Assembly (NCBI RefSeq): GCF_020514235.1
Contig: NZ_VTLB01000001.1
Location: forward strand, 248,001-312,000
DNA: 64,000 nt
Source of the DNA: Synechococcus sp. MU1617
GTDB taxonomy: Bacteria; Cyanobacteriota; Cyanobacteriia; PCC-6307; Cyanobiaceae
Direction of reading: 5' to 3'
Part shown: positions 3,728-40,463 of the stretch, piece after piece
Layout of the letters: each line of letters starts with the position of its first letter
How positions within the stretch are numbered: the first letter of the stretch is position 1
Notes under the pieces: model-generated
The model's input: the letters and a program-made list of their open reading frames with translations, nothing else
What the model was told of the DNA's origin: nothing
The model's database searches: none
Position numbers and translations under genes: made by a program

Positions 3728-4883
3728 AGCGAGGCAGCTCTGTCTCAAACAGGTTGAGCAGACGGTTCACGTTTTCAGGGTTGGAGTTGTACCCCATAAG
3801 ACCGATGCGCCAGATTTTTCCGGCCAGGCTGCCGAGTCCGCCACCCACCTCGATGCCGTGGTTGTTGAGCAGGTGTTGGCTAAAGGCCTTGCCATCCACA
3901 CCTTCAGGAATGCGAACCGTGGTGAGGGTGGGCAATCGGCGGTCGGCTGGGACATGCATCGAAAGGCCGAGGCTTTCCAGACCACTCCAGAGCATCTCCG
4001 CATTGCTGCGATGGCGTGCCCAGGCCTGATCGAGACCTTCTTCTGCCAAAAGACGCAGAGCCTCACGCATGCCGAAGTTCATGTTGACCGGCGCAGTGTG
4101 GTGATAAACGCGGTCACTTCCCCAGTACTGATTCAGCAGGGAGACATCCAGGTACCAGTTGGGAACCTTGCCCTGACGAGCTGTCATCTTGGCCTCAGCA
4201 CGGGGACCCATGGTGAAGGGGCCGAGTCCGGGAGGGCAGCTCAGGCCCTTCTGGCTGCAGCTGTAGGCAAGATCAACCTTCCACTCGTCGATGTAAAGCG
4301 GTACACCCCCCAGGGAGGTGACGGTGTCGAGCAGCAGCAGGCAATCGTGCTTCCGGCAGAGGTCGCCAATGCCCTCCATGGGTTGGCAGACACCCGTTGA
4401 GGTTTCGGCATGAACCATCGCCAGGATGGCAGGCTTGTGCTCGATCAGCGCCGCTTCCAGCTCATCGAGGGAGAACCACTCACCCCAGGGCTTCTCAATG
4501 GTTTTCACCTCAGCGCGGTAGCGGCCGGCCATGTCAGCCAGTCGCAGGCCGAAGTATCCCTTGACCGCCACGAGAACGGTGTCTCCCGGTTCGACGGTGT
4601 TGGCCAGGGTTGCCTCCATGGCAGCACTGCCGGTGCCGCTCATCGGAAGTGTGAGGCGGTTGTCGGTCTGCCAGGCGTAACGCAGCAGCTCTTGGACCTC
4701 ACCCATCAGCTCCACGTAGAGAGGATCAAGGTGACCAATCGGCGTTCTCGACAGAGCCTTCAGAACCGTTGGGTGGGCATTTGAGGGGCCGGGTCCAAGC
4801 AGAAGGCGGTCGGGTGTGCCGATCGGTGCAAAGGCTTTGCGGTGACGATCGTCAACAGGAAGGAGTGAGTTCGTCGTCGCCAA
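3699..4883 (-). CDS. Class V aminotransferase, alanine/serine-glyoxylate type
   Basis: PLP-dependent aminotransferase of fold type I, class V, resembling alanine-glyoxylate and serine-glyoxylate aminotransferases; in cyanobacteria such enzymes act in photorespiratory glyoxylate metabolism. Visible features: the N-terminal LLGPGPSNAHP motif, the cofactor loop SGTGSAAMEA, an Asp in LLLDTVTSLGGVP and the Schiff-base Lys in SCSQKGLSCPPG. At 394 residues it is full length. The gene ends inside tadA on the opposite strand. Amino donor (alanine or serine) cannot be decided here; a soluble hydrogenase small-subunit label used for close homologues in old annotations is historical. Confidence 0.88.
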   Translation of the reverse strand: MATTNSLLPVDDRHRKAFAPIGTPDRLLLGPGPSNAHPTVLKALSRTPIGHLDPLYVELMGEVQELLRYAWQTDNRLTLPMSGTGSAAMEATLANTVEPGDTVLVAVKGYFGLRLADMAGRYRAEVKTIEKPWGEWFSLDELEAALIEHKPAILAMVHAETSTGVCQPMEGIGDLCRKHDCLLLLDTVTSLGGVPLYIDEWKVDLAYSCSQKGLSCPPGLGPFTMGPRAEAKMTARQGKVPNWYLDVSLLNQYWGSDRVYHHTAPVNMNFGMREALRLLAEEGLDQAWARHRSNAEMLWSGLESLGLSMHVPADRRLPTLTTVRIPEGVDGKAFSQHLLNNHGIEVGGGLGSLAGKIWRIGLMGYNSNPENVNRLLNLFETELPRFSGSVAAAA

Positions 4884-20642: not shown

Positions 20643-20656
20643 GGCTCAACTGTGCA

Positions 20657-21019
20657 TCAGCACAGCCGTTCCACATCAATCCAGCGAATCGTTCGGCGGG
20701 ATTTCATCAAGGGAACAAGGGCCAGCTTGACCCGGAGCAGCTGCTCCGCTGACGCCGGATGCACAGCTCTCCAACTACTGATCGCACGAGCCATGCGGCG
20801 CCGTTTGGCGGGGTGAAAGGCATCAAGGCCATGGCGGTCCCGACAACCAGTGCGACGGCCTTTCACCTCCACCACCAACAGCTGCTGCTGCCGCTCCAGC
20901 ACCAGATCGAGCTCGCCCCAGCGGCAGTGCCAGTTGCGGTCCAGCAACCGCCATCCCTGCGCTTCCAGCTGCTGCAAGGCCTGCTGCTCCGCCCAGCTAC
21001 CGCTGCATTGAGACTCCAC
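20657..21019 (-). CDS. YraN/UPF0102 family endonuclease-like protein
   Basis: A 120-residue protein with the restriction-endonuclease-like core of UPF0102: [24 protein letters not shown], then [23 protein letters not shown] with the E-D-ExK catalytic pattern. Most likely a Holliday-junction-resolvase-related nuclease, but its biological role is not established. It is the first gene of the minus-strand run and is 14 bases from rsmA. A divergent promoter region of about 60 bases separates it from the pentapeptide gene. Confidence 0.88.
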
Positions 21020-23921: not shown

Positions 23922-24282
23922 ATTTTTCGATCGAAACCGTCCAGGCCCGCGGGGACAAAGCCTGCAATCCCGCTTTGAACGCGGCCGTATCCCCTGTGTT
24001 CAACCAGTCCGCCTTGAGCCTGGGCACGTCCTCCGGCAGCCGTTCCATCGGCAGCTCCACCAGCAGCAGGCTGTCGGCTCCAGCCGCACGCTGCAGCACA
24101 CCCTGATCACTGCGCTGCCACACCCTCAGCAACAGCTCCAGCACCAGAGCATGGCCCAACGCATCCGGAGCCTCACCCTGCGGAGCCACCTCTTTCTGAG
24201 ACCGCCCCCCCAGGGGCAAAGCGCGCTGGCCCTGCTGATCGATCAGCGCCATGGCCACGAGGTAAGGGGAGTCAGCCAACAC
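23890..24282 (-). CDS. Hypothetical protein divergent from umuD
   Basis: A 130-residue protein from a GTG at 24282 (MLADSPYLVAMALIDQQGQR). Its mid-section DALGHALVLELLLRVWQRSD and end RLKADWLNTGDTAAFKAGLQ read as a normal soluble protein, but I recognise no family. The frame stays open with protein-like sequence (GGFGEDGALRNLVLADS) back to a TGA that touches the LexA-type site at 24330, without an ATG, so the true N-terminus is uncertain. It shares the 85-base region with umuD and could be under the same operator. Confidence 0.6.
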   Translation of the reverse strand: MLADSPYLVAMALIDQQGQRALPLGGRSQKEVAPQGEAPDALGHALVLELLLRVWQRSDQGVLQRAAGADSLLLVELPMERLPEDVPRLKADWLNTGDTAAFKAGLQALSPRAWTVSIEKFKPVALQPLW

Positions 24283-24329
24283 CAGATTTCGAAGGGCACC
24301 ATCCTCACCGAATCCTCCCCACAGGAATC

Positions 24330-24343
24330 AGTACATACGTACT
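24330..24343 (+). promoter_or_regulatory. LexA (SOS) operator upstream of umuD
   Basis: AGTACATACGTACT is a 14-base site with perfect outer arms AGTAC-N4-GTACT and fits the cyanobacterial LexA consensus RGTAC-N3-DGTWCB. It lies 24 bases before the umuD GTG and overlaps a possible -10 element TACTAT (24340-24345), so LexA binding there would block transcription. It also lies 48 bases from the start of the divergent gene. Confidence 0.85.
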
Positions 24344-24367
24344 ATTTAGTCAGCTGTTGCTGCCGCC

Positions 24368-24799
24368 GTGGAGCTCCAACACAGACCGCTGCCCCTGCAG
24401 CCCAAGCGCAGTCGGCTCACGCTGCCCCTGGCTGGGGAACGGGTCACCGCCGGCTTCCCGTCCCCCGCCGATGACTACGTCGATGTGGGGATCGACCTCA
24501 ATGAACAACTGATCCGGCATCCCAGCAGCACCTTTTTCCTGCATGTGAGCGGCGAATCAATGACCGACGCCGGCATCCACGACGGCGATCTTCTGGTAGT
24601 CGATCGCAGCCTCGACCCGCGCCCGGGCCAGGTGGTTGTGGCTGTGCTCGACGGTGCCTTCACCCTCAAACGCCTGATGCGTCATCGCGGCCGGTTGCGC
24701 CTGGAAGCCGCCCATCCGGACTATCCGCCACTGGAGCTTCATTGCTGCGGCGAAGTGCAGATCTGGGGCGTCGCCATCCACGTGATCCATCCGCTCTGA
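24368..24799 (+). CDS. umuD: SOS mutagenesis protein UmuD (S24 peptidase family)
   Basis: UmuD self-cleaves on RecA filaments to UmuD', which with UmuC forms DNA polymerase V for translesion synthesis. The cleavage site is Ala28-Gly29 in TAGFPSPADDY (E. coli has Cys-Gly; LexA has Ala-Gly). The catalytic dyad is Ser64 in HVSGESMTD and Lys101 in GAFTLKRLM. The 143-residue length is normal. Initiation is at GTG. Its usual partner umuC is not next to it but 14.4 kb downstream, beyond one giant gene. Confidence 0.94.
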   Translation: MELQHRPLPLQPKRSRLTLPLAGERVTAGFPSPADDYVDVGIDLNEQLIRHPSSTFFLHVSGESMTDAGIHDGDLLVVDRSLDPRPGQVVVAVLDGAFTLKRLMRHRGRLRLEAAHPDYPPLELHCCGEVQIWGVAIHVIHPL

Positions 24800-24893
24800 G
24801 GCGAAAAATGTCTGATAGGCAGATCAGAAAACTGGTCCAGCCTTCAAGACGGAACAAAGCGGCTAACTAGCGTCAAAGTGAGAACGAAGTTGC

Positions 24894-27800
24894 ATGAGAA
24901 AAGCAAGCAACACGATCTGGAGATATTGCCTTAGCGCAGTTGCGTTTGCTGCCATTATTAATGGTGGAGAAAGTATCGCCCAAAGCAGCAATTTACCAAG
25001 CAGCGAAAATCCTTATACATATCCAAGTGATTTCGAAGATGGTTCGGAGAATTTCGTTCCGGTCTATCTTTATTTCACGGGTGGAGGTGGAAATCCAGGC
25101 GGGAATGGAGCGACAATTGATTTCAATATTGAAAGCCTGCCAGCAACAACAGGGGAATTTTATAGCTGGTATACAGGAGCTCAATCACAGGGTGGAAATG
25201 GCAACAAAGGTTCGGACGGAAATTGTGACGACATACTAAAAGTAACGGATTGCCATGCCACAGGTGGAAAAGGTGGAGACGGCGGGAATGGCGGGAAAGT
25301 AAGTGTAAATCTAGGCTCGGCTGATAGCTACGACGTAAGCAATAGGATCAAAATCCAAACATCGCAAGTAACAGAATCTGGGGGATCGTACATTGTAGGA
25401 GCAATTGCTTCAAGCATTGGCGGAAATGGCGGAAAAGGTGGGGCAAGTTCTTCAATATCAGTAGACGCCAATGGTGGCAAAGGTGGTAACGGAGGCAATG
25501 CGGAAAGCGAAGCTCCGCCAACCACATTGACAATCAATAAAAATGTAGAGCTAAGAGCGTTGAGTAGTGGAAACGAATTGATTCCAATCGGTGGATTGGC
25601 TCAAAGCGCAGGTGGTATCGGTGGTGATGGAGGAGACTGCGATTCAATTGGTGGCTGCCCAGATAAAGATCGAGGTGGTGGAGGTGGATTTGCAGGCGAT
25701 ATAACCATTAACAATGATGGAATTATTGAGCTCGAAATAACTGATCAACAATGCAGCAACACTGAGGACGGTGAGAGCTGCGCAGGCGGAGCCGGCCTAT
25801 TGGCTCAATCAGTGGGTGGACAAGGCGGAAACGCAAGTGCAACAGGAATCTCCCTGGTGACCTTCGGTGGCGCAGGGGGAACAGGGGGTGGTGGTGGGAA
25901 AATCAATGTCACACACACGGGACTGATTACAACCACGGGAATTGGGGCGATCGGGATTAATGCCCAAAGCGTGGGCGGCAGTGGAGGTTCAGTTCCGGAT
26001 AGCTATTCGGCAGTCACACTGGGAAGCTCAGAAGGTGGATTGGGAGGAGAGGCTCAAACCGTATCGGTGAACCTGGATGCAGGCATCATCAAAACAAATG
26101 GAAATTACGCACCAGGAATTCTCAGCCAAAGCATTGGTGGAGGTGGTGGTTCAGTCGGATCACAAACAAGCCTGATTACTGTTGGATCCGACGCAGGGGG
26201 AGGAGGAGATGGCGGGGAGGCAGCAATCACGTTGCAAAACAACGGATTGATCGAGACAGGTGAACATTTCAAATTAAACACCACAACAAGAGAAGGATTC
26301 TTTTCACCTGCCGTCATTGTCCAATCGGTAGGCGGGGGCGGAGGTAACGCAGGAACCAATACAGGAACAATCAACGTTGGCTCATCGGGAGGAGATGGTG
26401 GTGATGGCGGAAATGTCACGGCGGTATTGAATCAATCAACGCTTGGAACATGGCGGGGATTTTCACCAGGGCTCGTTCTACAGAGCATTGGTGGTGGTGG
26501 AGGTCATGGCGGTGATGTAAGTAGTGCTGACACAGGCCAAGTTTCAGTTGGCGGTGGTGGCGAAGGCGGTGGAGGTGGAAATGCAGGGGAAATTAATGCT
26601 TTTCAAGATGTCTTTGGTGAAAGCACTAAGATCATTACGCATGGCATTTTTTCACCAGGAATACTTGTTCAAGGAATTGGTGGTGGTGGCGGAAGTGGAG
26701 GAAGTGCAACCTCTCTCACATTAAGCCCAGAGCCATCGATAAGCGTTACTGTTGGAGGACAAGGCGGAGATGGAGGAGATGCTGGTGTCATCAACTTTGG
26801 ATCGGATATTGATGAATCAATTGAATTATCTGTAAAAACTCAACGAGCCTTCTCACCTGCCATCAGCATGATGAGCGTGGGTGGTGGTGGTGGTCAAGGT
26901 GGCCAATCCAGCACATACGGAGCAAGTCTGACAGTATCAGCCTCAGTAAGTGCAGGGGGGCAAGGAGGAGCAGGAGGAAGTGGTGAGAATGTAACGGCAT
27001 ATCTGAAAGGAAAAACAGAAACTTCCGGCTTCATGTCACCGGGCCTGTCAATCAGCAGCATCGGTGGTGGTGGTGGAGATGGAGGCTCAGCCACAAGCAT
27101 GAATGCAGGAGGAATTGCATCTGCATCAGTGGCTATTGGAGGAAGTGGAGGTGAGGGAATGAATGGTGGAGATGTAACCCTTACTTATCAAGGGAGCAGC
27201 ACAACACAAGGTTTATTTTCGCCGGCAATAAAAATCAGAAGTATCGGTGGTGGCGGTGGCAGTGGAGGATCATCAACGACAGCGGATGCGTCAAGTACCG
27301 CAAGCATTGGCGTAGGCATCGGGGGAGCTGGTGAAGGCGGAGGAGATGCAGGAGAGGTTTACCTTGATTTCGAAGGATTAGCGTATACAAACAATGCACT
27401 TTCACCTGTATTACTGCTACAAAGTATTGGTGGTGGTGGTGGAGATGGTGGCGGGGCGACAAGTGGAAGTATGGCTATTAGTCCATATCCAAATATAAGT
27501 GCAGTAGCAACAATCGGCGGAAGTGCCGGTATGGGTGGGAACGGAAATAACATCACTCTGAATCTTGGAGGAGTCATCAAGAGCGGCAATGATGCGGCTG
27601 TAGATCCGCTGAAAAGATCAGGATTTTCACCAGGAGTCATTATTCAAACAATCGGTGGCGGAGGCGGACACGGCGGGGTGGCGACCTCAGGCTCTGCGAG
27701 CATTTCAGCCGAAGCAGCCGTCACAGCGAACGTGGCGATTGGCGGACCGGGGGGGGCAGGTGGAAACGCAGGAACTATTGAAATCAGCAGTAAAAAAATC

Positions 27801-30800
27801 AGCGCAATCGAGACCTACGGAAAATTCTCACCAGGATTGATTGCGCAAGCCATTGGTGGTGGTGGTGGAAATGGCGGATCGAGCATGAGCCTGTCTGGAA
27901 CGATTGGTGGGGATGGAAGTGCAAGTGGTGGTGTGTCTATGGGTGGTAGTGGTAGCGAAGGAGGAACAGGAGGGGGAATCGATCTAGATGGTTTACAAGG
28001 TGGAATTCACACAAGGGATGAATTTTCACCAGGAATAATTCTTCAAAGTATTGGAGGAGGTGGAGGAAACGGTGGAACATCGTTGAACTATTCCTTGTCG
28101 GCAGGTGGAGACGGTGCTATCGACGCAACCGCATCGATTGGCGGGAGTGGAGCGGCAGGAGGATCAGGCGGTGATGTAGAGATCAAGATCGGATCACAAA
28201 TCGAAACCGAGGCTGATCATTCGCCAGGCCTCGCGGTGCAGTCAATTGGTGGGGGCGGAGGAAACGGAGGTTCAAGCCATACAGTTTCAGCGACCGGTTC
28301 AACAAAAAATACGTTTACAGCAGGAGCAAACCTTGGAGGGTCTGCCGGAGATGGTAATAAAGGAGGGGACATCACCATTGAATATGAAAACGAATTCGCT
28401 CAAACAAAAAGCTTAGTGCAAACAAGTGGTGCATTTGCGCCTGCAATTGTTGTTCAATCCATTGGCGGCGGTGGCGGCAATGGAGGAAATTCATCAACAC
28501 TAAGTGCAAGTCTGAGTGGGGAAGATGCTCTCAGTGCAAATGTAAATCTAGGGGGAAATGGTGGCTCAGGCAGTGACGCCGGAAAGATCGAACTAAGCAT
28601 CAAGGGTGATCTAAGAACGGGATGGAGCGAAGCAAGAAGAACAACATCATCGCACGCACCAGGAATTATTGCTCAATCGATTGGTGGCGGTGGTGGACAT
28701 GGAGGAACAGCAACTCGAGGAGAAATAACCATTGCCGGGAAAGATTCGGCAAGTGTAGGAATTGCAAATTTTGGCAATACTGTTGGGGGAGGGAGTGAGC
28801 CACAGGGAGGGGAAGGAGGCGATGGAGGGAGCGGTTCAAATGTGAGTATTGAAGTCCTAGAAAGGGGCAGCATCACAACAAGTGGTGATTATTCTCCCGG
28901 TGTTATTGCCCAAAGTATTGGGGGTGGAGGCGGAACAGGAGGTTCAAGTAAGTCTGGATCAATCAGCCTTACTGGTGAAACTCAGATTCAGCTCAACTCG
29001 GTCATTGGCGGAAATGGTGGTTGGGCAGGAGATGGCGGAAATATCGTTGTACTAAACACAGGTAAAATCAGAACTGGTGAACAACATCTATTACGGACGG
29101 ATGGACGATTCTCACCAGGCCTTTTCGCCCAATCTATCGGTGGTGGCGGCGGGATGGGCGGATCCGCTTATAACGGGACAATCACTGTTGCTGGAGAGTC
29201 TGAAAGTGGATTGGGTTCAATCGATGGAGGTGTAGTTGTCGGTGGACGCGGTGGCGCTGGTGGAGATGCAGGAAGCGTGGAAATTAACAGTATGGGTGAA
29301 GAGATAAGAACTCAGGCAGACTTTTCGAGTGGAATACAAGCAGTTTCGGTAGGAGGAGGTGGCGGAACGGGCGGAAGTGCAAGGTCAAAGAGCAGCAATT
29401 ATGGAACGGCAACAAATAACCTTAGTGTGGTTTTAGGGGGAGATGGAAGTGGGGGTGGAGATGCAAGTGAAGTAACGATTACAAACAGAAGCATCATCAA
29501 GACAGGAGGAAGAGACCAAACGCGTAGAGGACAACACTCATTTGGAATCTTTGGGCAATCTGTTGGCGGTGGTGGTGGCAATGGAGGGAGCAGCTCGACA
29601 GACAACACCAGCATCGAAATTGATGAATCAGAAGAAAAAAAGGCTTACACAATCGATGTCAACCTCGGCGGAAAAGCAGGCAAAGGAGGATCAGGTGGAA
29701 ATGTTCGTATCAACAACACATCACCATTAATCAGTACAACAGGTCATTTTGCAGCAGGTATTTACGGCCAATCAATTGGTGGCGGGGGTGGAGCCGGTGG
29801 TAATAGCACTTCAGTCAATAACGTGGAGGTAATTTCCGAGACATCCGTGATTGGTGGAGTCAGTCTTGGGGGTGAGGGTGGAACAGGAGGAAAGGGAGGA
29901 GATGTATGGATCAACTCGGATAAGGAAAGAAAATCATTTGCGCCAATACAAATTAAAACCTTAGGAGCCTTTGCCTATGGACTTTTTGCGCAATCAGTGG
30001 GTGGTGGCGGTGGATCTGGTGGAAGCACCCTAGTGAGTAATAGGACAACATCAATCGATGGAGATTCAATTATTGCTGAAGGTGGTGGGTCAATCAAATT
30101 AGGAGGAATTGGTGGGGAAGATTGGGGAGTTGGTGGAGAAGGTGCCAGTGGGGGAGACGTCAGTATTGATGCACAGGGTTTAATTGCTACGGAGGGAATT
30201 GGGGCGATTGGACTGGTAGGTCAATCAATCGGTGGAGGTGGTGGAGCAGGTGGAAGCTTCACAGCAACAAGTTCACAGGATGAAGCAGATGAGGGTGAAT
30301 TTGAGGAAGAAGACGAAGAGATAGAGGAAGATCTGGAAGAAGAAGGTGAGACAAAAGAGAGAAACGATGCCTACATCAATTTCATACTCGGTGGTGATGG
30401 AGGGGAAGGCCATGATGGAGGAGAAGTATCCATCAGCAATAAAGATCAAAAGCAACTGCAGATCAACACCAAGGGAATTAATGCACCAGCAATTGTTGCC
30501 CAGTCCATTGGAGGTGGTGGTGGAATTGGAGGCAGTACAACAGACAATGCCGAGGTCGTCAAAGCATCCCAATACAGTATTGGCGGATTAGGAACAGTCA
30601 CAGGAAGTGGGGGAAATGCAGGAAACGGCGGGGTTGTGAATCTTGGGGCAAGGAGAGAGACACTCAATCTCCGTTTGAAGACTGAAAAGGCAGCTTCGCC
30701 ATCAATAATTGTGCAATCCATTGGTGGTGGAGGTGGAGCAGGTGGAGGTACGGTCACCAACTCCACCGGATCAGCCTTTTCAGGATCATTCGACTTCGGC

Positions 30801-33800
30801 ACCAAGGGGGGCAAAGCAGGATCAGGGTCTGATGTCAGTACACACGCCACACTGGATCTGACAACACTGGGCTACCAGTCCACTGCACTGATCATCCAAT
30901 CAATTGGTGGCGGTGGGGGACAGGGCGGAAATGTGAGCAATACAAGTACCACTAGCTATGAAGACAATGAAAACAAGGAGGAAGAAAAAATTGAAGAAAA
31001 TATAAAACAAGAAGAGAGCAAAGAAGGCGGGAATACAAACGAGAAAGACAAAGAAGATAAAGAGAAAAAAGGTTACACCATGAATTTCGGAGTAAGTAAA
31101 TCAGGAAAAGGTGGTAGTGGTGGAGATGCAGGAGATATTAATGTCAATATTGAAGGAAAAATTCTCACGGTACGAACAGGAAGTGATGGAGGCTTGATCC
31201 AAAGCATTGGTGGAGGCGGCGGAAGCGGAGGCACAACAACAACCACTCCGACAACAGAAGGGAACGAAGAGGGCTCAATCTCAATCCCTGTTGCAATGAA
31301 CTTTGGCGGTCGCGGAGGAGGTGGCGGAAACGCAGGTGATATCAACTATCGAAGCAACGGGAGACTTTTTGTCCAAACTGAAGGAAACAACTCTCTCGGC
31401 TTAGGCCTGCAAAGTATTGGAGGCGGAGGCGGTCGCGGCGGGAGTGTAACAACAACGAATACAAACAATTCAAAGAGCGAATATACATTTGGCGCCTCCG
31501 TGAGCAAAGGTGCAAAAGGTGGTGGCGGAGGACGATCTGGTGAGGTTTCACTTGATCTTCTGGGAAGAAGGTCGAAGATCCAAGTTGCCACTCATGGAAT
31601 CAACTCCCCTGGACTAGTTCTTCAAAGTATCGGCGGTGGCGGTGGAATAGGATCAAATTCAAACGCAGGTAACAGCGCTGGAAATATCTCCGTGGGATTT
31701 ACCATGGGTGGTCGGGGAGGTCGTGGCGGCGGAAGTAAACGCGTCGATCTGAATGCTGACCTATCGGTCAGCACAAAATCGGCACATTCCGAAGGCGTAC
31801 TCATTCAATCGATCGGTGGCGGCGGCGGACGTGGTGGCAGTGTTGCAGCGAACGTAAAAGCCGAAGGCCATGAATCAGAGAATAAATTTAGTCTTGGTCT
31901 AACAGGGGCGCTCGGTGGTAAGGGCGGACTGGGAGGCAATGGTGCTGACGCCACAGCATCGATTAATGGCTTAGTGACAACTCAAGGCCATATTTCATCA
32001 GGAATCACAATCCAATCAATCGGCGGCGGTGGTGGTAAAGCAGGAGCAATTTTTAATGCCAGTAATGCAAAGGGAAGCGCTAAAAATATGGCAACTGGTT
32101 TTTCGCTCGGTGCATCCGGTGGTGGAGCTGGTGAGGCGAAAGCAGTACGTCTTGTCAGCAAAGAGGATAAAAAATTAGGTGTATTTACATATGGTCATGC
32201 AAGCCCTGGTGTGATGCTCCAAAGCATTGGAGGGGGTGGAGGGAATGGATCACTGGTGCAAAATGTGAGCAGAAGTAGCTCCAATGAATTCTCGCTCGGT
32301 GCTTCAGTATCAAAAGGAGGCAGAGGTGGAAGTGGCGGCAACAGCGGCGCAGTTGCCGTGGATCTGCAAAATTTGGTGATCGCAACCGAAGGAGCTAATT
32401 CAAGCGGATTGCAGGCTCAGACCATTGGTGGAGGTGGTGGAAATGCGGGGTCAGTGAATGCCAAAACCGGAAAAGGGGATTACCAAATCAGTCTTGCTCT
32501 TGGTGCTAACGGGGGGAAAGGAGGATCTACAGGGAACGCTTCAATTGAAATCGAAGATGCAATTATTACAACACAAGGTGCATCATCCAATGCCATTCAA
32601 ATCCAAGCCATCGGCGGTGGAGGTGGTAACGCTAGCCATGTAACTAACCGTGGATCAAAAGCAACCATTCAGGGTGAGCTTGGAAGTCAATCCGGTGACG
32701 GCGGAAATGGAGGTGTTGTCAACGTTACAAGCATTGCTGATTTACGAACTGCTGGAAACAACTCTGCAGGACTCTTTGTGCAAAGCATTGGTGGCGGCGG
32801 TGGTTCAACGAATGTAACGACTACCGGAGACAGAGATTTACTGAAGTCTGACGATTTGAAAGGTTTTATAGCGGTAGGTGGCCAAGGAGGAGAAGGTGGC
32901 GATGGAGGGGAAATCAATATAGATTCAACAACAAACATCACGACGTTAGGCGAACAAGCACATGGCTTGATATCTCAAAGTCTTGGAGGTGGTGGCGGAA
33001 GAGTTGCACTACAAGCAGGCCCCATCCTGGCGGCATCAGACATGTTGATGCACCTCGGTGGAACATCAGGAAAAGGGGGGAATGGAGATACAGCTGTCGT
33101 TAGCAATAAAGGTTATGTATCAGTACACGGAGATTCAAGCTATGGATTATATGTTCAATCAATCGGAGGTGGTGGAGGTTCCGTATCGAGCACATCACCA
33201 ATCAAAGTGAATCTTGGCGGAACAGGAGGAGATGGTGGACATGGTGGAGACATAGAAGTTGTTAATCAGAAAACAGGGATCATTGAATCTCGTGGCAAAA
33301 ATGGAATAGGTGTATTTGCAATGTCACTTGGGGGAGGTGGCGGTGATGTTGGAACAACTCAAGATCTTGTCACGATGGGTAGCAAGGTTGGAGTTGGCGG
33401 TAACGGTGGTGATATCGCAATTTTGAATCGGGGGACAATCAGAACCACTGGAGAAGGAGGTGTAGGAATTCTTGCAAGAAGTCTTGGTGGTGGTGGTGGA
33501 CGAGTGGCTTCAAGTATCAATAGTGGAAATCTTCATCTCGGATCAACTAGCTCAGAAGAAGCCAAGGGCGGAGAAGTTACTGTTATCAATACTGGAAACA
33601 TCTATTCCTTCGGACACGATTCGACGCCATTACAACTCGATGGAATAGGCGGGGGAGGTGGAGATGCACGGAAGAACTATGGACGTTTGGAGCTGGGAAG
33701 CAAAAACGGTTCTGGTGATCAACGATCAAAGAGAAGTGAGCTTAATAACAAAGGTTTCCTTTATTCAGCGCAGAATTTTTCACCGGCACTGATTCATCAA

Positions 33801-36800
33801 AGCCTAGGTGGTGGTGGTGGAAGTGTAATTAATGGTAAGGATCATGCTCAACTCGGAAGCCAACACGGATCTGGATTGCAATCAACCGGGAAACTGATAC
33901 TCAACAATCGAGGCTCAGCAATTACCGAGGGAACGAATTCGCCGGGCGTATTTGTCCAAACCATTGGTGGGGGGGGTGGACGCGTAACCCGAGTGGATGG
34001 AACAGCTCATCTTGGCAGCCATCACACCAAACACCTTGGCGACTTTTCGTCAGGTCGCATTCAGCTGAGCAACAACGTAAAAACTATAAGAACTGCAGGG
34101 CATCTCAGCCCAACACTGGTTAGCCAAAGTATTGGCGGAGGTGGAGGTTGGATTGGCATCGCGCAAGGTGACCTGAGTCTTGGAGCCGTCAACTCCAATG
34201 GTGCACTATCAGCCGGGCCAATCAAAATTCAAAATGATGCAGAACTCAGAAGTGAGGGAGATGGATCAGTTGGCTTGATGAGTCAAACGATTGGTGGTGG
34301 TGGTGGTTATTCGGCTTATGCAAAGGGAGAGTTAAAACTTGGTTCATTGACTTCAAAGGGCAACCTTTCAGCAGGCAAAATTGACTTAAGCAATACCGGC
34401 TCAATTCTCACACTGAATGACAATTCACCAGTTATTATTAGTACTAATATTGGCGGAGGTGGGGGATTCATTGGTGGTACTAACCATCTGAAAACCAATG
34501 GAGAGGGTAATATCAGGCTTGGCAGCTTGAACAGCGAAGGCAATCAATCATCCAAAAGCAATAAAATTAGGAATACTGGCTATCTTCAATCACAGGGAAA
34601 TTATTCACCGGCCGTTCTTCAACAGACAATCGGTGGCGGTGGAGGAAGCGTTGTTCATGGCAAAGGGCATGCTCAGTTAGGAAGTGGAAGCGGTTCTGGG
34701 GATCAATCCGCAGGAGATCTTATCTGGCTGAACAAAGGAAGAATCATTACATCAGGGGATCATTCACCTGCTGTTTTTAACCAATCAATAGGCGGTGGTG
34801 GAGGTCGAGTCAGCCGAGTTAATGGAACAGCACATTTGGGTAACAAAGAAACTCTTCGATCGAGTTTTCTAAATTCGGGCGAATTATCAATCAGAAATGA
34901 AGGCCAATTAGTTGCTACTGAAGGAAATTTGAGCCCTGCAATCGTGAGCCAAACCATCGGTGGCGGGGGCGGCTGGCTTGGAATCAGTGCTGATGACTTG
35001 AAATTGGGGTCAAGTGAAGCTCTTGGTGATCAATCTTCGGGTGATCTTGTTCTAACGAACAAAGGACATTTGATTACACGTGGTGTTGCTTCTGGTGGAA
35101 TTCTTGCGCAATCAATTGGAGGTGGTGGTGGCTACACAGCATTCGCCAACGGATCACTTCAATTGGGAGCACTCAATTCCCATGGTGTGCTTTCAGCTGG
35201 ACAGGTTGATCTTAAAAATAGTTCTTCAATACGAACTGATGGTAAGAACTCACCAGGAATTGTGGCAACCGGCGTTGCAGGGGGTGGTGGCTTTGTAGCA
35301 GGTCAAGCAGGAGAGATTGTAAACGTCGTGCATCTGGGCGGTTCTGGTCGAACAGTATCCAAGGCTGATCGGCTCAGGATCAAGCTTGATCGCTCGTCAG
35401 AAGTCATCACCAAGGGGCACAATTCACCTGGAGTTCTAGGGCAATCGATTGGCGGTGGAGGTGGATATACGAGTCAGCGTGGGCGTTTTGTCAACATGGG
35501 CCAACAGGGTGGAATCGGCCATGCCGGCAACGTTGACATTGAAAATGAAGGAAGAATTTCTACCAGAGGGAATCACTCCCATGGTGTTGTTGCACAAAGC
35601 ATCGGAAGCGGTGGAGGAACTGCATTCCTCAGTGATCGACGTGCTGTTCTTGGTTCAACCAATGGATCCAATGGAAACGCAGGATCTGTAGTTGTTAACA
35701 ACCGTCGTGGAATCATTTCCACGCATGGGAAACACTCCATCGGAGTGGTTGCTCAATCTGTTGGCGGTGGTGGCGGACGGCTAGCTGAAGCGAAGGGTGA
35801 TGTTCAACTTGGTGCTGATGGTGGATCCGGACATGGCGGGCTTGTGGAGATCATTAATGAACGTGCGCTGATCAGCACTACCGGAAACTTTTCACCGGCT
35901 TACCTCATGCAGAGTGTCGGAGGTGGTGGTGGGCACATTGCCGCTCGCCGTAACGGTGAAACCGAAGCCAACACGCGTCTGATTCTCGGGGGAGGACAAC
36001 AAGGTGCCGAAGGAAATGGTGGACCAATCCAACTCAAGAATTTCACGGGTGAAATCAACTCAAGTGGAAAGTTTTCCCCTGGAATCGTTCACCAGTCCAT
36101 CGGTGGTGGTGGTGGCTGGTTGGGTGAATTATCTGGAATCAGCACAAGCCTGGGTGGTCGCTCACTTGGCCGATCCAGTGGTGCAAACCTGAACATGAGG
36201 CTTCCACTGGCCGTTAATACTCTCAGTGCGACCAGCCCCGGAGTCGTGATTCAGAGTATTGGAGGAGGTGGGGGTGCTTCTGGAAACATCAAACGTGCTG
36301 CCTACTTGGGTGGTCGACCAGATTCCGGGTCAATTGTGCGTGGGGGAACAATTGGTTTTGTCTCCAAGCAACCCATCAAAACTTTTGGTTTGAATTCCCC
36401 TGGTGTGCTGCTGCAAAGTATTGGTGGTGGTGGTGGATATGTTGGATCAGCGAGAAAACGCGTTGAGCTTGGAGGAACAATCCATCGCTTGGCTGATGCA
36501 TCAGCAGGCAACATTGAGACGATCAATCGTTCTTTGATCTCAACATCCAACAAACGCTCACCAGGTTTCGTTGCTCAATCCATAGGAGGCGGCGGTGGTT
36601 TCATTCTGTCTGGTGAATCAGCAGTTCTAGGATCAAAAAACGCAAAAGAGAATCGCTTGACTCTTAACGAACGTGCAGGTACGACAAAATTAATCAATAA
36701 AGGAGCCATTCAAACCCAGGGTGAGCACAGCATGGGTGTGCTCATCCAATCAATTGCCAATGGTGGTGGCATCGGCAGCAGTAATTCTGGCAATGTTGAC

Positions 36801-39155
36801 TTGAGATCAAAGAGTCAGTCTGAATCAGGTGAGATAACAATTGAGAATTCAGGAATAATTGAAACCTCAGGAACTGGCTCTCATGGGATTGTCGCCCAGT
36901 CAATTTCTGGTTCCGGGGGCTTTGTCTTTGGAAACTCACAAAAACATCAACCAATAGAACTAGAACGACAAATCACAGCGGAATCCAAAGACATTACACT
37001 CAAAAATACGGGAACAATTCTGACTCGTGGAGACAATGCAATTGCTGTGCTTGCGCAAACCGCAGCAGGTGGTGCCTACATCTACCAAAATCCTGACGGC
37101 ACAACATCTCGTGTCACATCAGCGCTTACTCATCCGAGCAAAAAAGCCGGCGATGTTGTCGTCATTAATAGTGGGTCAATTATCGCAACGGGGAGAGGCG
37201 GTATCGGCATCACAAAGAGCACAAATCCTGTTCCAATTGAATCCAATCTTCGTGTTGTAAATACAGCGACTGGTATTATTCGCGGTGGAGAAGGTGGTGC
37301 AGCTGTTCAGTTGCCTACAAGAGAGCGAGAATCGATTGATAATCAGGGCATCATGATTGGTGGCCTCTTAGGTCAAGGAATTGTGATTGAGGGGCTTGGA
37401 GGTAATGACGAAATCGTCAATTCCAATCTGATTGCTGGGAATATTCTGCTTCAAGGTGGTCGCAATACCATTGCCAACTCCGCCAATGCGAGACTCGAAG
37501 CCACTGATATCGTCCTGGGCCGTCGCGCAGAACTGGTGAACGCAGGCACCCTTTCTCCTGACGGAGCCCATCGGATTGGAACGATGGATTTAGTTGCCAA
37601 ATACTTCCAAACAAAAACAGGAAATTATGAATTTGATCTTGATATCTCCGATGGCCAAACAGATTATTTTCATATTGCTTCTGTTGGATTACTTGAGGGC
37701 GATGTCACTCTCGTACCAACAGAAACCGGCCTCGCCAAGCCTGGTCGATTTACAAGCACAGAGTTTTTGACTGCCCGTGATATTCCGCTCGACAGACTTT
37801 CATTCAAATACCCAAAATCAGCCATCGCAGATTACAAGCTACTCGATGTCTCAAGCGATAAAGGTGATGGCCTCCAAGTGGAATACAAGATTGATTACTC
37901 CCCTCAGGGGCTTTCACCTAACAGCCGCCGCTTAGGCAATGCTATTAACCGTATCCAAGCCGATGGTGTTGATTCAATTGAACAAAGAGTGAATGCTGCA
38001 TACCTATACTCAATCGAAACAACAGATGAACTGAATGAGGTTTATCAGCAATTGTCTGGGGAGCAAAACACAAATTATTCACAGCCCATTATCGACTCTT
38101 CCTTGCTGTTCTTGAAAGCTGCACAAGATCAGATTGATCAGGCATCCAATCAAATCAGCCTGGCATGTGCGAACAAGGACGTCTCAGAAGCCCCTGATCA
38201 AACCAATGAATCTCAAGATTCATCGGTCTGCCAGCGATTCCATGCATGGAAAGAAAGCTCGGGTACATCCGACACCTATGAAGGAGGAGGAAGTTCAGAT
38301 CAAAGCGGCTATGAGACCAACTCTTACAACTCTTCCATTGGCCTTAGTTACCAACTCAATCCACGCATCATGGTTGGTGGTTTCGGTCAATTTTCCAAAC
38401 TTTGGACAACATCCACGGGATTGAGTGGCCATGGAACAACTGAGCTATGGAATGCCGCCGGATTCCTCAATGTTGCCCTATCCAAGGACACACCAAACAC
38501 CCTTCTATCATTGATGATCGGTGGAGGAACGGCATCAACAGACATCAAGCGAACCATTGATCTTCCGAACACCTCAACCGAAAAGAGCAGCGCAGACAGT
38601 ACCCAATTCATGGGCAGGATTCAGCTCAGTCATGAGTTTTCTACAGGCGACGGACCTCTATCAGGACTGATCACACCACAACTTGGCATCAGTGCCATTC
38701 ACTACTCACAAAAGGGCTATCAAGAACGCACCTCTTCAAGTAGCCAGTCTTGGGCTCCTGGCCGCCACCGTTTTTCTGAATCTATTGAAATCGAACCATC
38801 ACACAGCCTTCGCTATTCCGAGGCAACGTACACATCAATCCCTCTCGATTTCAATATCAAGTTCTCACAGCCTTTCCAAATTGGAACTGTTCGATTCAAT
38901 CCACAACTCTCCGCTGGCTACAGCATCGATCTGAGTGACACCAGTCGGTCCCTTGAAGCGGCGTTCGTTAATCAACCTGGACACCGCTTCAAGGTTGAGG
39001 GAACCGACGCACCTCAATCCTGGTGGGATTTTGGCCTCAATCTGGATGTCCACATCAGCGACTCCTTTGCGCTGTACGCCAACACTCGAGCTGAATTGGC
39101 CGCTGGCACCAAGAGCTCCTTCAACTACGGCGGCGGCTTCCGCTGGAAGTTCTAA
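24894..39155 (+). CDS. Giant Gly-rich-repeat autotransporter (type V secretion adhesin)
   Basis: A single uninterrupted frame of 4,753 codons. A signal peptide covers about residues 1-30 (YCLSAVAFAAIINGGESIAQ). The passenger runs to about 4180 and holds roughly sixty repeats of about 60-65 residues, each with a (V/L/A)QS(I/V)GGGGG block next to SPG and N-x-G-x-I-x-T segments, consistent with a long beta-solenoid. Two acidic low-complexity inserts occur near 1795-1825 and 2020-2060. From about 4182 there is a non-repeat stem, then a linker (GLSPNSRRLGNAINRIQADG, DELNEVYQQLSGEQ) typical of autotransporters, and a beta-barrel from about 4445 ending GGGFRWKF. It should be exported by Sec and displayed on the outer membrane. 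Similar AQSIGGGGG passengers are known to me from alpha- and beta-proteobacteria. Base composition is far more AT-rich than the neighbours, suggesting transfer. Substrate or ligand unknown. Confidence 0.92.
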   Translation: MRKASNTIWRYCLSAVAFAAIINGGESIAQSSNLPSSENPYTYPSDFEDGSENFVPVYLYFTGGGGNPGGNGATIDFNIESLPATTGEFYSWYTGAQSQGGNGNKGSDGNCDDILKVTDCHATGGKGGDGGNGGKVSVNLGSADSYDVSNRIKIQTSQVTESGGSYIVGAIASSIGGNGGKGGASSSISVDANGGKGGNGGNAESEAPPTTLTINKNVELRALSSGNELIPIGGLAQSAGGIGGDGGDCDSIGGCPDKDRGGGGGFAGDITINNDGIIELEITDQQCSNTEDGESCAGGAGLLAQSVGGQGGNASATGISLVTFGGAGGTGGGGGKINVTHTGLITTTGIGAIGINAQSVGGSGGSVPDSYSAVTLGSSEGGLGGEAQTVSVNLDAGIIKTNGNYAPGILSQSIGGGGGSVGSQTSLITVGSDAGGGGDGGEAAITLQNNGLIETGEHFKLNTTTREGFFSPAVIVQSVGGGGGNAGTNTGTINVGSSGGDGGDGGNVTAVLNQSTLGTWRGFSPGLVLQSIGGGGGHGGDVSSADTGQVSVGGGGEGGGGGNAGEINAFQDVFGESTKIITHGIFSPGILVQGIGGGGGSGGSATSLTLSPEPSISVTVGGQGGDGGDAGVINFGSDIDESIELSVKTQRAFSPAISMMSVGGGGGQGGQSSTYGASLTVSASVSAGGQGGAGGSGENVTAYLKGKTETSGFMSPGLSISSIGGGGGDGGSATSMNAGGIASASVAIGGSGGEGMNGGDVTLTYQGSSTTQGLFSPAIKIRSIGGGGGSGGSSTTADASSTASIGVGIGGAGEGGGDAGEVYLDFEGLAYTNNALSPVLLLQSIGGGGGDGGGATSGSMAISPYPNISAVATIGGSAGMGGNGNNITLNLGGVIKSGNDAAVDPLKRSGFSPGVIIQTIGGGGGHGGVATSGSASISAEAAVTANVAIGGPGGAGGNAGTIEISSKKISAIETYGKFSPGLIAQAIGGGGGNGGSSMSLSGTIGGDGSASGGVSMGGSGSEGGTGGGIDLDGLQGGIHTRDEFSPGIILQSIGGGGGNGGTSLNYSLSAGGDGAIDATASIGGSGAAGGSGGDVEIKIGSQIETEADHSPGLAVQSIGGGGGNGGSSHTVSATGSTKNTFTAGANLGGSAGDGNKGGDITIEYENEFAQTKSLVQTSGAFAPAIVVQSIGGGGGNGGNSSTLSASLSGEDALSANVNLGGNGGSGSDAGKIELSIKGDLRTGWSEARRTTSSHAPGIIAQSIGGGGGHGGTATRGEITIAGKDSASVGIANFGNTVGGGSEPQGGEGGDGGSGSNVSIEVLERGSITTSGDYSPGVIAQSIGGGGGTGGSSKSGSISLTGETQIQLNSVIGGNGGWAGDGGNIVVLNTGKIRTGEQHLLRTDGRFSPGLFAQSIGGGGGMGGSAYNGTITVAGESESGLGSIDGGVVVGGRGGAGGDAGSVEINSMGEEIRTQADFSSGIQAVSVGGGGGTGGSARSKSSNYGTATNNLSVVLGGDGSGGGDASEVTITNRSIIKTGGRDQTRRGQHSFGIFGQSVGGGGGNGGSSSTDNTSIEIDESEEKKAYTIDVNLGGKAGKGGSGGNVRINNTSPLISTTGHFAAGIYGQSIGGGGGAGGNSTSVNNVEVISETSVIGGVSLGGEGGTGGKGGDVWINSDKERKSFAPIQIKTLGAFAYGLFAQSVGGGGGSGGSTLVSNRTTSIDGDSIIAEGGGSIKLGGIGGEDWGVGGEGASGGDVSIDAQGLIATEGIGAIGLVGQSIGGGGGAGGSFTATSSQDEADEGEFEEEDEEIEEDLEEEGETKERNDAYINFILGGDGGEGHDGGEVSISNKDQKQLQINTKGINAPAIVAQSIGGGGGIGGSTTDNAEVVKASQYSIGGLGTVTGSGGNAGNGGVVNLGARRETLNLRLKTEKAASPSIIVQSIGGGGGAGGGTVTNSTGSAFSGSFDFGTKGGKAGSGSDVSTHATLDLTTLGYQSTALIIQSIGGGGGQGGNVSNTSTTSYEDNENKEEEKIEENIKQEESKEGGNTNEKDKEDKEKKGYTMNFGVSKSGKGGSGGDAGDINVNIEGKILTVRTGSDGGLIQSIGGGGGSGGTTTTTPTTEGNEEGSISIPVAMNFGGRGGGGGNAGDINYRSNGRLFVQTEGNNSLGLGLQSIGGGGGRGGSVTTTNTNNSKSEYTFGASVSKGAKGGGGGRSGEVSLDLLGRRSKIQVATHGINSPGLVLQSIGGGGGIGSNSNAGNSAGNISVGFTMGGRGGRGGGSKRVDLNADLSVSTKSAHSEGVLIQSIGGGGGRGGSVAANVKAEGHESENKFSLGLTGALGGKGGLGGNGADATASINGLVTTQGHISSGITIQSIGGGGGKAGAIFNASNAKGSAKNMATGFSLGASGGGAGEAKAVRLVSKEDKKLGVFTYGHASPGVMLQSIGGGGGNGSLVQNVSRSSSNEFSLGASVSKGGRGGSGGNSGAVAVDLQNLVIATEGANSSGLQAQTIGGGGGNAGSVNAKTGKGDYQISLALGANGGKGGSTGNASIEIEDAIITTQGASSNAIQIQAIGGGGGNASHVTNRGSKATIQGELGSQSGDGGNGGVVNVTSIADLRTAGNNSAGLFVQSIGGGGGSTNVTTTGDRDLLKSDDLKGFIAVGGQGGEGGDGGEINIDSTTNITTLGEQAHGLISQSLGGGGGRVALQAGPILAASDMLMHLGGTSGKGGNGDTAVVSNKGYVSVHGDSSYGLYVQSIGGGGGSVSSTSPIKVNLGGTGGDGGHGGDIEVVNQKTGIIESRGKNGIGVFAMSLGGGGGDVGTTQDLVTMGSKVGVGGNGGDIAILNRGTIRTTGEGGVGILARSLGGGGGRVASSINSGNLHLGSTSSEEAKGGEVTVINTGNIYSFGHDSTPLQLDGIGGGGGDARKNYGRLELGSKNGSGDQRSKRSELNNKGFLYSAQNFSPALIHQSLGGGGGSVINGKDHAQLGSQHGSGLQSTGKLILNNRGSAITEGTNSPGVFVQTIGGGGGRVTRVDGTAHLGSHHTKHLGDFSSGRIQLSNNVKTIRTAGHLSPTLVSQSIGGGGGWIGIAQGDLSLGAVNSNGALSAGPIKIQNDAELRSEGDGSVGLMSQTIGGGGGYSAYAKGELKLGSLTSKGNLSAGKIDLSNTGSILTLNDNSPVIISTNIGGGGGFIGGTNHLKTNGEGNIRLGSLNSEGNQSSKSNKIRNTGYLQSQGNYSPAVLQQTIGGGGGSVVHGKGHAQLGSGSGSGDQSAGDLIWLNKGRIITSGDHSPAVFNQSIGGGGGRVSRVNGTAHLGNKETLRSSFLNSGELSIRNEGQLVATEGNLSPAIVSQTIGGGGGWLGISADDLKLGSSEALGDQSSGDLVLTNKGHLITRGVASGGILAQSIGGGGGYTAFANGSLQLGALNSHGVLSAGQVDLKNSSSIRTDGKNSPGIVATGVAGGGGFVAGQAGEIVNVVHLGGSGRTVSKADRLRIKLDRSSEVITKGHNSPGVLGQSIGGGGGYTSQRGRFVNMGQQGGIGHAGNVDIENEGRISTRGNHSHGVVAQSIGSGGGTAFLSDRRAVLGSTNGSNGNAGSVVVNNRRGIISTHGKHSIGVVAQSVGGGGGRLAEAKGDVQLGADGGSGHGGLVEIINERALISTTGNFSPAYLMQSVGGGGGHIAARRNGETEANTRLILGGGQQGAEGNGGPIQLKNFTGEINSSGKFSPGIVHQSIGGGGGWLGELSGISTSLGGRSLGRSSGANLNMRLPLAVNTLSATSPGVVIQSIGGGGGASGNIKRAAYLGGRPDSGSIVRGGTIGFVSKQPIKTFGLNSPGVLLQSIGGGGGYVGSARKRVELGGTIHRLADASAGNIETINRSLISTSNKRSPGFVAQSIGGGGGFILSGESAVLGSKNAKENRLTLNERAGTTKLINKGAIQTQGEHSMGVLIQSIANGGGIGSSNSGNVDLRSKSQSESGEITIENSGIIETSGTGSHGIVAQSISGSGGFVFGNSQKHQPIELERQITAESKDITLKNTGTILTRGDNAIAVLAQTAAGGAYIYQNPDGTTSRVTSALTHPSKKAGDVVVINSGSIIATGRGGIGITKSTNPVPIESNLRVVNTATGIIRGGEGGAAVQLPTRERESIDNQGIMIGGLLGQGIVIEGLGGNDEIVNSNLIAGNILLQGGRNTIANSANARLEATDIVLGRRAELVNAGTLSPDGAHRIGTMDLVAKYFQTKTGNYEFDLDISDGQTDYFHIASVGLLEGDVTLVPTETGLAKPGRFTSTEFLTARDIPLDRLSFKYPKSAIADYKLLDVSSDKGDGLQVEYKIDYSPQGLSPNSRRLGNAINRIQADGVDSIEQRVNAAYLYSIETTDELNEVYQQLSGEQNTNYSQPIIDSSLLFLKAAQDQIDQASNQISLACANKDVSEAPDQTNESQDSSVCQRFHAWKESSGTSDTYEGGGSSDQSGYETNSYNSSIGLSYQLNPRIMVGGFGQFSKLWTTSTGLSGHGTTELWNAAGFLNVALSKDTPNTLLSLMIGGGTASTDIKRTIDLPNTSTEKSSADSTQFMGRIQLSHEFSTGDGPLSGLITPQLGISAIHYSQKGYQERTSSSSQSWAPGRHRFSESIEIEPSHSLRYSEATYTSIPLDFNIKFSQPFQIGTVRFNPQLSAGYSIDLSDTSRSLEAAFVNQPGHRFKVEGTDAPQSWWDFGLNLDVHISDSFALYANTRAELAAGTKSSFNYGGGFRWKF
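25402..37080 (+). repeat. About sixty coding repeats with QSIGGGGG core
   Basis: In-frame protein repeats spaced on average near 190 bases, each marked on the plus strand by a G-rich run of the type GGTGGTGGTGGTGGA. Two subtypes are visible. Up to about 33,500 each unit has a second Gly-rich block (such as GGXGGXGG) after the first. From about 33,500 to 36,700 that block is replaced by an LGS-x-x-S-x-G-x-QSSG segment and a Leu-x-Asn strand. The last units before 37,080 are degenerate (SIANGGG, SISGSGG, TAAGGA). Confidence 0.9.
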
Positions 39156-39163
39156 AGCCTTCC

Positions 39164-39183
39164 TATACTAGTACAAAAATACT
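39164..39183 (+). promoter_or_regulatory. LexA-type operator and -10 element of umuC
   Basis: AGTACAAAAATACT at 39170-39183 matches AGTAC-N4-GTACT with one change (G to A in the right arm). Directly before it, TATACT at 39164-39169 is a strong -10 element, nine bases past the giant gene's stop. Transcription would start near 39176, giving a very short leader before the umuC GTG. This lets umuC be SOS-controlled independently of umuD. Confidence 0.7.
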
Positions 39184-39188
39184 ATGGC

Positions 39189-40463
39189 GTGGTCTTCGTT
39201 ACTGCCCTGATCGATGGAAACAATTTCTATGCCTCCTGCGAACAGAGTCTGGACCCGGCTCTGATCGGCCACCCCGTTGTGGTGCTGTCCAACAACGACG
39301 GCTGCATCGTGGCGCGCAGTGCCGAAGCCCGTGCCCTGGGCATTCGCATGGGGACGCCGTACTTCAAGGCGCGCCGGGAGCTTGAACGGCACAACGTGGT
39401 GGTGCGCAGTTCGAACTACGCGCTCTATGCCGACATGAGCCAGCGGATGATGAGCCTGCTGGAGGCCCACTGCGAAGAGCTGGAGGTGTACTCAATCGAT
39501 GAAGCCTTCGGGAGGATTCGTCGTCCCCGCAATGGCGACCTGCAGGGTTGGGCCCGCCAGCTGCGGGCACGGGCACGGCAAAACCTCGGCCTTCCGATCG
39601 CCATCGGCCTAGGGGCCAGCAAGGGCCAGGCCAAGCTGGCCAATCGCCTGGCCAAACAGACCCCAGACCATGCCGGGATGTTCGACCTCGGCCAATGCGA
39701 CAACCCCGATCGCTGGCTGGAAACGATTGCGATCGAGGATGTCTGGGGGATCGGTCGCCAGTTGGCCCATTGGTGCCGCCTGCGGGGCATCAGCAACGCA
39801 CGACACCTCCGGGACATGCCGAGCGGTGAACTGCGCGCCAAATGCGGCGTGGTGGGTCTGCGGCTGCAACAGGAGCTGCGGGGCCATGCCTGCCTGCCGC
39901 TGGAGCTTGCACCGGCACCGAAGCAAGAAACCTGCGTGAGCCGCAGTTTCAGCCGACCCATCACCAGCCAGGAGGAGCTGCACCAGGCCATCGCCACCTA
40001 TGTGGTGCGCGCCGCCGAGAAATTGCGCAAGCAACGGCAACGGGCAGCAGCCCTCACCATCTACACCCGCACCAGCCCGTTCGCTCCTGGGTTTTACAGC
40101 CAAGCCGCCAGCACGCAGCTAGACCTACCCAGCAATGACACTGCCGTGCTGCTGCAGGCGGCACGACCCTTGGTGGCACGGATCTTTCGCCCCCACCGTC
40201 CGCTGGCCAAGGCCGGCGTGCTGATGCAGCACCTGCAGAGCCACGACATCCTGCAGACCCATCTGATGGTGCCGATGAGTGAGGAGCAGCAGCAGAAACG
40301 GGAGTGCCTGATGCAGACCATCGACCGGATCAATCGGCGTTACGGGCGTGGAACCCTGCAATGGGCCGGTTGCGGACTGCAGCCCAGTTGGTTGATGCGG
40401 CGGGAGCAACTCAGCCGTGCCGCCACCACCCGTCTGCAGGATCTGCCGGTGGTGAGGGCCTGA
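39189..40463 (+). CDS. umuC: DNA polymerase V catalytic subunit UmuC
   Basis: Y-family translesion polymerase that copies damaged templates when bound to UmuD'. Palm motifs are clear: ALIDGNNFYASCEQSLDPAL with the first metal Asp, SNNDGCIVARSAEARALGI, and VYSIDEAF with the catalytic Asp-Glu pair. The thumb and little-finger regions follow (LPIAIGLGASKGQAKLANRL, CVSRSFSRPI), and the end is the UmuC-specific C-terminal domain. 424 residues matches E. coli UmuC (422). Initiation is at a GTG with no visible ribosome site and a very short predicted leader. GC-rich like the backbone, unlike the gene before it. Confidence 0.95.
   Translation: MVFVTALIDGNNFYASCEQSLDPALIGHPVVVLSNNDGCIVARSAEARALGIRMGTPYFKARRELERHNVVVRSSNYALYADMSQRMMSLLEAHCEELEVYSIDEAFGRIRRPRNGDLQGWARQLRARARQNLGLPIAIGLGASKGQAKLANRLAKQTPDHAGMFDLGQCDNPDRWLETIAIEDVWGIGRQLAHWCRLRGISNARHLRDMPSGELRAKCGVVGLRLQQELRGHACLPLELAPAPKQETCVSRSFSRPITSQEELHQAIATYVVRAAEKLRKQRQRAAALTIYTRTSPFAPGFYSQAASTQLDLPSNDTAVLLQAARPLVARIFRPHRPLAKAGVLMQHLQSHDILQTHLMVPMSEEQQQKRECLMQTIDRINRRYGRGTLQWAGCGLQPSWLMRREQLSRAATTRLQDLPVVRA

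Follow-up and report, generated by a model that had tools for sequence, protein, structure and literature searches.

In marine Synechococcus, giant surface proteins have been associated with motility and with resistance to grazing (PMC9387257, PMC4949707). SwmB of Synechococcus WH8102 (10,791 aa), which is encoded in a genomic island, resembles the protein described here in being a giant surface protein of a marine Synechococcus, a likeness drawn by description only. We know of no autotransporter barrel in SwmB. The 10,429-aa betaproteobacterial protein BigE is likewise a giant autotransporter and grew by replication of passenger units (PMC3419190), but it has a BrkA-like passenger and belongs to another phylum; it too is compared by description only. 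Vag8- and pertactin-type passengers share the predicted β-helix fold of our protein, although their solved chains have about 400–500 residues, whereas our passenger has about 4,184 residues and contains glycine tracts.

The window analysed here, a stretch of 64,000 nucleotides from Synechococcus sp. MU1617, genuinely encodes a giant type Va autotransporter, which is complete and belongs to a known, uncharacterised kind. No internal stop codon interrupts the frame at 24894–39155, which is organised as follows:

24894–39155, forward strand: giant autotransporter gene, a single open frame with an ATG start and 4,753 codons; product of about 464 kDa
24894–24980, forward strand: putative signal peptide, residues 1–29 (from hydropathy and sequence pattern; homologues have a comparable N-terminus)
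24981–26123, forward strand: Gly-rich N-terminal passenger, residues 30–410, with four degenerate repeats at residues 172, 236, 304 and 357
26124–33152, forward strand: long-type repeats, residues 411–2753, mostly 59–79 aa, many with two Gly tracts
33153–36914, forward strand: short-type repeats, residues 2754–4007, 51–61 aa, with one Gly tract
36915–37532, forward strand: passenger end, residues 4008–4213, modelled as a β-helix without GGGGG cores
37917–38186, forward strand: predicted α-helical linker, residues ~4342–4431, containing DELNEVYQQLSGEQ (low-confidence model; conserved in alignments)
38262–39152, forward strand: outer-membrane β-barrel with C-terminal Phe (PF03797 match at 38262–39083)

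An earlier note, made from the sequence alone, had proposed a signal peptide, a long repeat passenger, an autotransporter linker and a barrel ending in Phe, and each of these elements was recovered. The N-terminus resembles a Sec signal peptide: a positively charged n-region and a hydrophobic stretch precede SIA/QSS, which by sequence pattern looks like a signal peptidase I site. DELNEVYQQLSGEQ, the proposed linker, falls within the helical stretch predicted at low confidence and aligns with the linker sequence of alphaproteobacterial autotransporters. Comparison of the C-terminal 353 aa with the Pfam autotransporter β-domain PF03797, the check that the note had suggested, gave a highly significant match (E 3.8e-29, 102.6 bits, cut-off 26), and the last residue of the product is Phe. 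Pfam and NCBIfam scans were run on pieces, since scans of the whole protein gave no useful match; the Pfam scan of all 4,753 aa missed PF03797, probably owing to composition. In the AlphaFold2 (AF2) model, which used an alignment of only four sequences, the barrel has a pLDDT of about 40 or less, so that the evidence for the barrel is the HMM match. A sequence search of the C-terminal domain against solved structures found nothing.

Analysis of the passenger revealed 57 QSIGGGGG-type cores between residues 411 and 3951, spaced 51–101 aa apart; the GGGGG-core pattern was observed 54 times, against a mean of 0.5 (maximum 3) in 500 shuffles of the repeat region. With the degenerate copies, repeats occupy the passenger from about residue 170 to 4007, and strongly acidic insertions lie inside repeats at residues 1776 and 2001. 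AF2 modelling of residues 984–1411, with other repeats from the same protein as the alignment, yielded an all-β fold (pLDDT 78.9, pTM 0.75), the closest structure to which is the springtail antifreeze protein with nine PPII helices (Z 12.4, rmsd 1.6, 125 residues), followed by Vag8 (Z 12.2) and pertactin (Z 11.9). Foldseek alone returned no match at E < 0.001. The GGGGG tracts may thus form polyglycine-II ribs on a β-helix, an assignment for which Gly-rich alignments can mislead. A second model, of residues 3733–4753 with three relatives in the alignment, gave a β-helix for the passenger end (3733 to about 4213; pLDDT mostly 60–97, and mostly 58–97 for residues 4008–4213, model residues 276–481). 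The best structural match of residues 3733–4213 is Vag8 (7akv; Z 24.4, rmsd 2.5, 274 residues), and Fap2 is also among the matches (Z 16.4). Residues 4008–4213 could represent an autochaperone region. Both repeats and passenger end are therefore predicted to be solenoids, as the earlier note had expected, and the combination of signal peptide, QSIGGGGG repeats, helical linker, PF03797 β-domain and modelled Vag8-like β-helix makes the assignment as a classical, type Va autotransporter close to certain.

Many type Va passengers carry enzymes, and the giant passenger could accordingly be an enzyme or toxin cargo delivered by the barrel, with no structural fibre. We consider this very unlikely: repeats run from about residue 170 to 4007, and neither Pfam nor NCBIfam, scanned in pieces, placed a catalytic or any other domain in the passenger. 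Matches to DXP_redisom_C (E 0.016–0.24) and Calycin_like (E 0.25) fell under the cut-off and were judged to be chance. Because no catalytic domain was detected and relatives vary greatly in length, the protein is probably a structural surface fibre that acts as an adhesin or a steric shield.

When 59 related genomes were searched at the protein level, the C-terminal domain was recovered from its own genome only and from none of the congeners, which gave weak profile matches only, to other autotransporters. Full-length relatives came to light in a single sister genus when 400 Cyanobiaceae genomes were searched with a profile; the carriers include Synechococcus sp. UW105 and UW140. These relatives have the same signal peptide, repeats, linker and barrel, and their frames span 4,603–10,741 aa with 56–150 repeats, some being broken by contig ends or frame breaks; complete ones are mostly longer than ours (7,446–10,741 aa, 103–150 repeats). 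Identity to our protein is 40–43% over the first 400 aa and 36–38% over the C-terminal 560 aa. Up to three giants occur per genome, often in tandem, and they lie elsewhere, whereas ours lies within umuDC. Tandem giants of 7.4–10.7 thousand residues are found at L072–L074 (genome G250) and L075–L078 (genome G299). The identity of two G250 copies across the final 1,700 bp suggests that gene conversion or a recent duplication has taken place; in one G250 copy the N-terminal part lies in a frame of its own. Variable length, patchy presence and, in the sister genus, tandem duplicates with homogenised C-termini characterise the family.

Another cyanobacterial family (L119, genome G608) also has a frame of this type, 4,170 codons long, in which QSIGGGGG repeats, linker and C-terminal domain are all present, so these proteins are not confined to Cyanobiaceae. 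Alphaproteobacteria (Sphingobium TKS, Ancylobacter and Tistrella) share the order of AQSIGGGGG repeats, linker and barrel, in proteins annotated as ‘autotransporter outer membrane beta-barrel domain-containing protein’, but these are plasmid-borne, form a separate clade and have only ~20–23% identity in the C-terminal domain. The closest homologues of the giant protein are cyanobacterial. In the tree, our sequence groups with the sister-genus giants (support 87/85), a placement that is tentative given the moderate support and a long branch. A tblastn search of plasmids with the passenger repeats gave no match, although low-complexity masking hides Gly repeats in such a search, and no relevant paper came up in a text search of the literature for the repeat motif. 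A phage carrier is unsupported, scans of the viral collection having yielded no relative of the C-terminal domain. The same genome encodes three other PF03797 autotransporters, L001 and L002 (contig C3, ~189.6–194.5 kb) and L003 (contig C1, ~631.6 kb); they have different passengers, and the barrels of L002 and L003 are closely similar.

The earlier note had set such proteins apart from the known giants of marine Synechococcus, a claim that needs correcting, since several occur in the sister genus, the longest with 10,741 aa, and the architecture is also found in Alphaproteobacteria. Giant surface proteins that serve swimming and grazing resistance in marine Synechococcus (PMC9387257, PMC4949707) do offer a precedent for a motility or grazing-defence factor that works like SwmB, but the repeat type differs and the giant protein has its own autotransporter barrel, so that we regard this role as unlikely.

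Comparison of the flanks with congeners (blastn and local alignment against G003 and G001) delimited an inserted segment, which the earlier note had not mentioned:

24330–24343: perfect LexA box AGTACATACGTACT, 38 nt before umuD
24368–24799, forward strand: umuD (Peptidase_S24), 79–98% identical to congeners
24805–39200, forward strand: inserted segment of 14,396 bp, which replaces 22 bp of the umuD–umuC junction
39170–39183: LexA-like box AGTACAAAAATACT with one mismatch, within the insert, in the 33-bp gap from the giant gene stop to umuC
39189–40463, forward strand: umuC (IMS, IMS_C, DUF4113), its first residues replaced by the insert

The flanks are 92–95% identical to both congeners up to 24804, and the match resumes at 39204 (G003) or 39201 (G001). 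umuD and umuC are contiguous, without the giant gene, in all 26 congener loci, and are also adjacent in 11 sister-genus loci. Insertion between umuD and umuC is close to certain. The giant gene has a GC content of 0.49 and a GC3 of 0.36, against a GC3 of 0.68–0.78 in neighbouring genes; this foreign base composition, together with the absence of the insertion from congeners, points to horizontal gain. No direct or inverted repeat of at least 8 bases is common to the two insert ends, so that no transposon signature is apparent. A segment of foreign composition that is absent from congeners, in an assembly of 10 contigs, could also reflect foreign DNA wrongly joined into umuDC. Such a chimera is barely credible: both breakpoints lie within one contig, the closest homologues are cyanobacterial, a LexA-like box stands at the join, and the umuC frame is kept by an in-frame restart at a new GTG (VVFVTALIDGN here, MPQATALIDGN in congeners). 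Elsewhere in the window, at 20644–20879, congener G001 has an additional ~4.6 kb, which separates a KsgA-like rRNA methylase gene from the genes preceding umuD.

The cyanobacterial LexA consensus is AGTACWNWTGTACT (PMC3091678), and mitomycin C induces umuC in two marine Synechococcus and umuD in one of them, CC9311 (PMC3744912). The AGTACATACGTACT box, one of five such sites found in the genome, has a counterpart at the same position in 16 of the 26 congener loci. The other LexA-type boxes lie at 15547 on contig C1, 177304 on C3, and 51061 and 159273 on C5, one of them close to where a DprA-like frame begins. The giant gene, on the same strand as umuD, starts 94 bp after it, and no terminator-like site was found on the coding strand between the two. 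Owing to this spacing and the lack of a terminator, co-transcription with umuD is likely, which in turn would make the giant gene, lying behind the LexA box, likely to be SOS-inducible.

A credible, less probable reading is that the same autotransporter is transcribed independently, from a promoter situated in the 94-bp leader, with umuDC as a neutral landing site and SOS irrelevant. The sister-genus relatives agree with this in that they are not at umuDC, which is therefore not the usual home of the family; several of them adjoin genes that resemble, as judged by eye, sugar or LPS genes. No perfect LexA box was found near the sister-genus giants in the regions fetched, and together with their location this implies that the family as a whole is not under SOS control. 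The AGTACAAAAATACT box, a level of match reached in 0.2% of gap shuffles, may restore to umuC an operator of its own, so that read-through from the giant gene would not be needed. Against a separate promoter stand the short same-strand spacing behind umuD, the lack of a coding-strand terminator and a σ70 consensus scan of 24100–24950 that returned no promoter, although the scan also missed that of umuD.

Our preferred reading, to which we assign a probability of roughly 0.6, is a horizontally acquired giant type Va surface fibre, adhesin or steric shield, that is most likely carried on the LexA-repressed transcript of umuD and raised by DNA damage. A mechanism is proposed where the Sec system exports the protein, the barrel becomes integrated into the outer membrane and the 4,184-residue passenger folds outside the cell as a right-handed β-helix, possibly with polyproline/polyglycine II ribs contributed by the Gly tracts; with ~20–25 residues per rung, the fibre would be very roughly 80–100 nm long. 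Horizontal acquisition brought the gene to its place between umuD and umuC, from which it most likely shares the umuD transcript.

The giant autotransporters form a family that is common to cyanobacteria and Alphaproteobacteria and is uncurated, with no NCBIfam match and only the barrel detected by Pfam. The surprising part is the location inside an SOS operon. A hybrid fibre of β-helix and glycine polyproline II that came under SOS control through its landing in umuDC, and that alters the cell surface upon DNA damage, by clumping or shielding, is a tentative proposal; the location thereby raises the question of whether DNA damage induces a giant surface fibre in a marine cyanobacterium.
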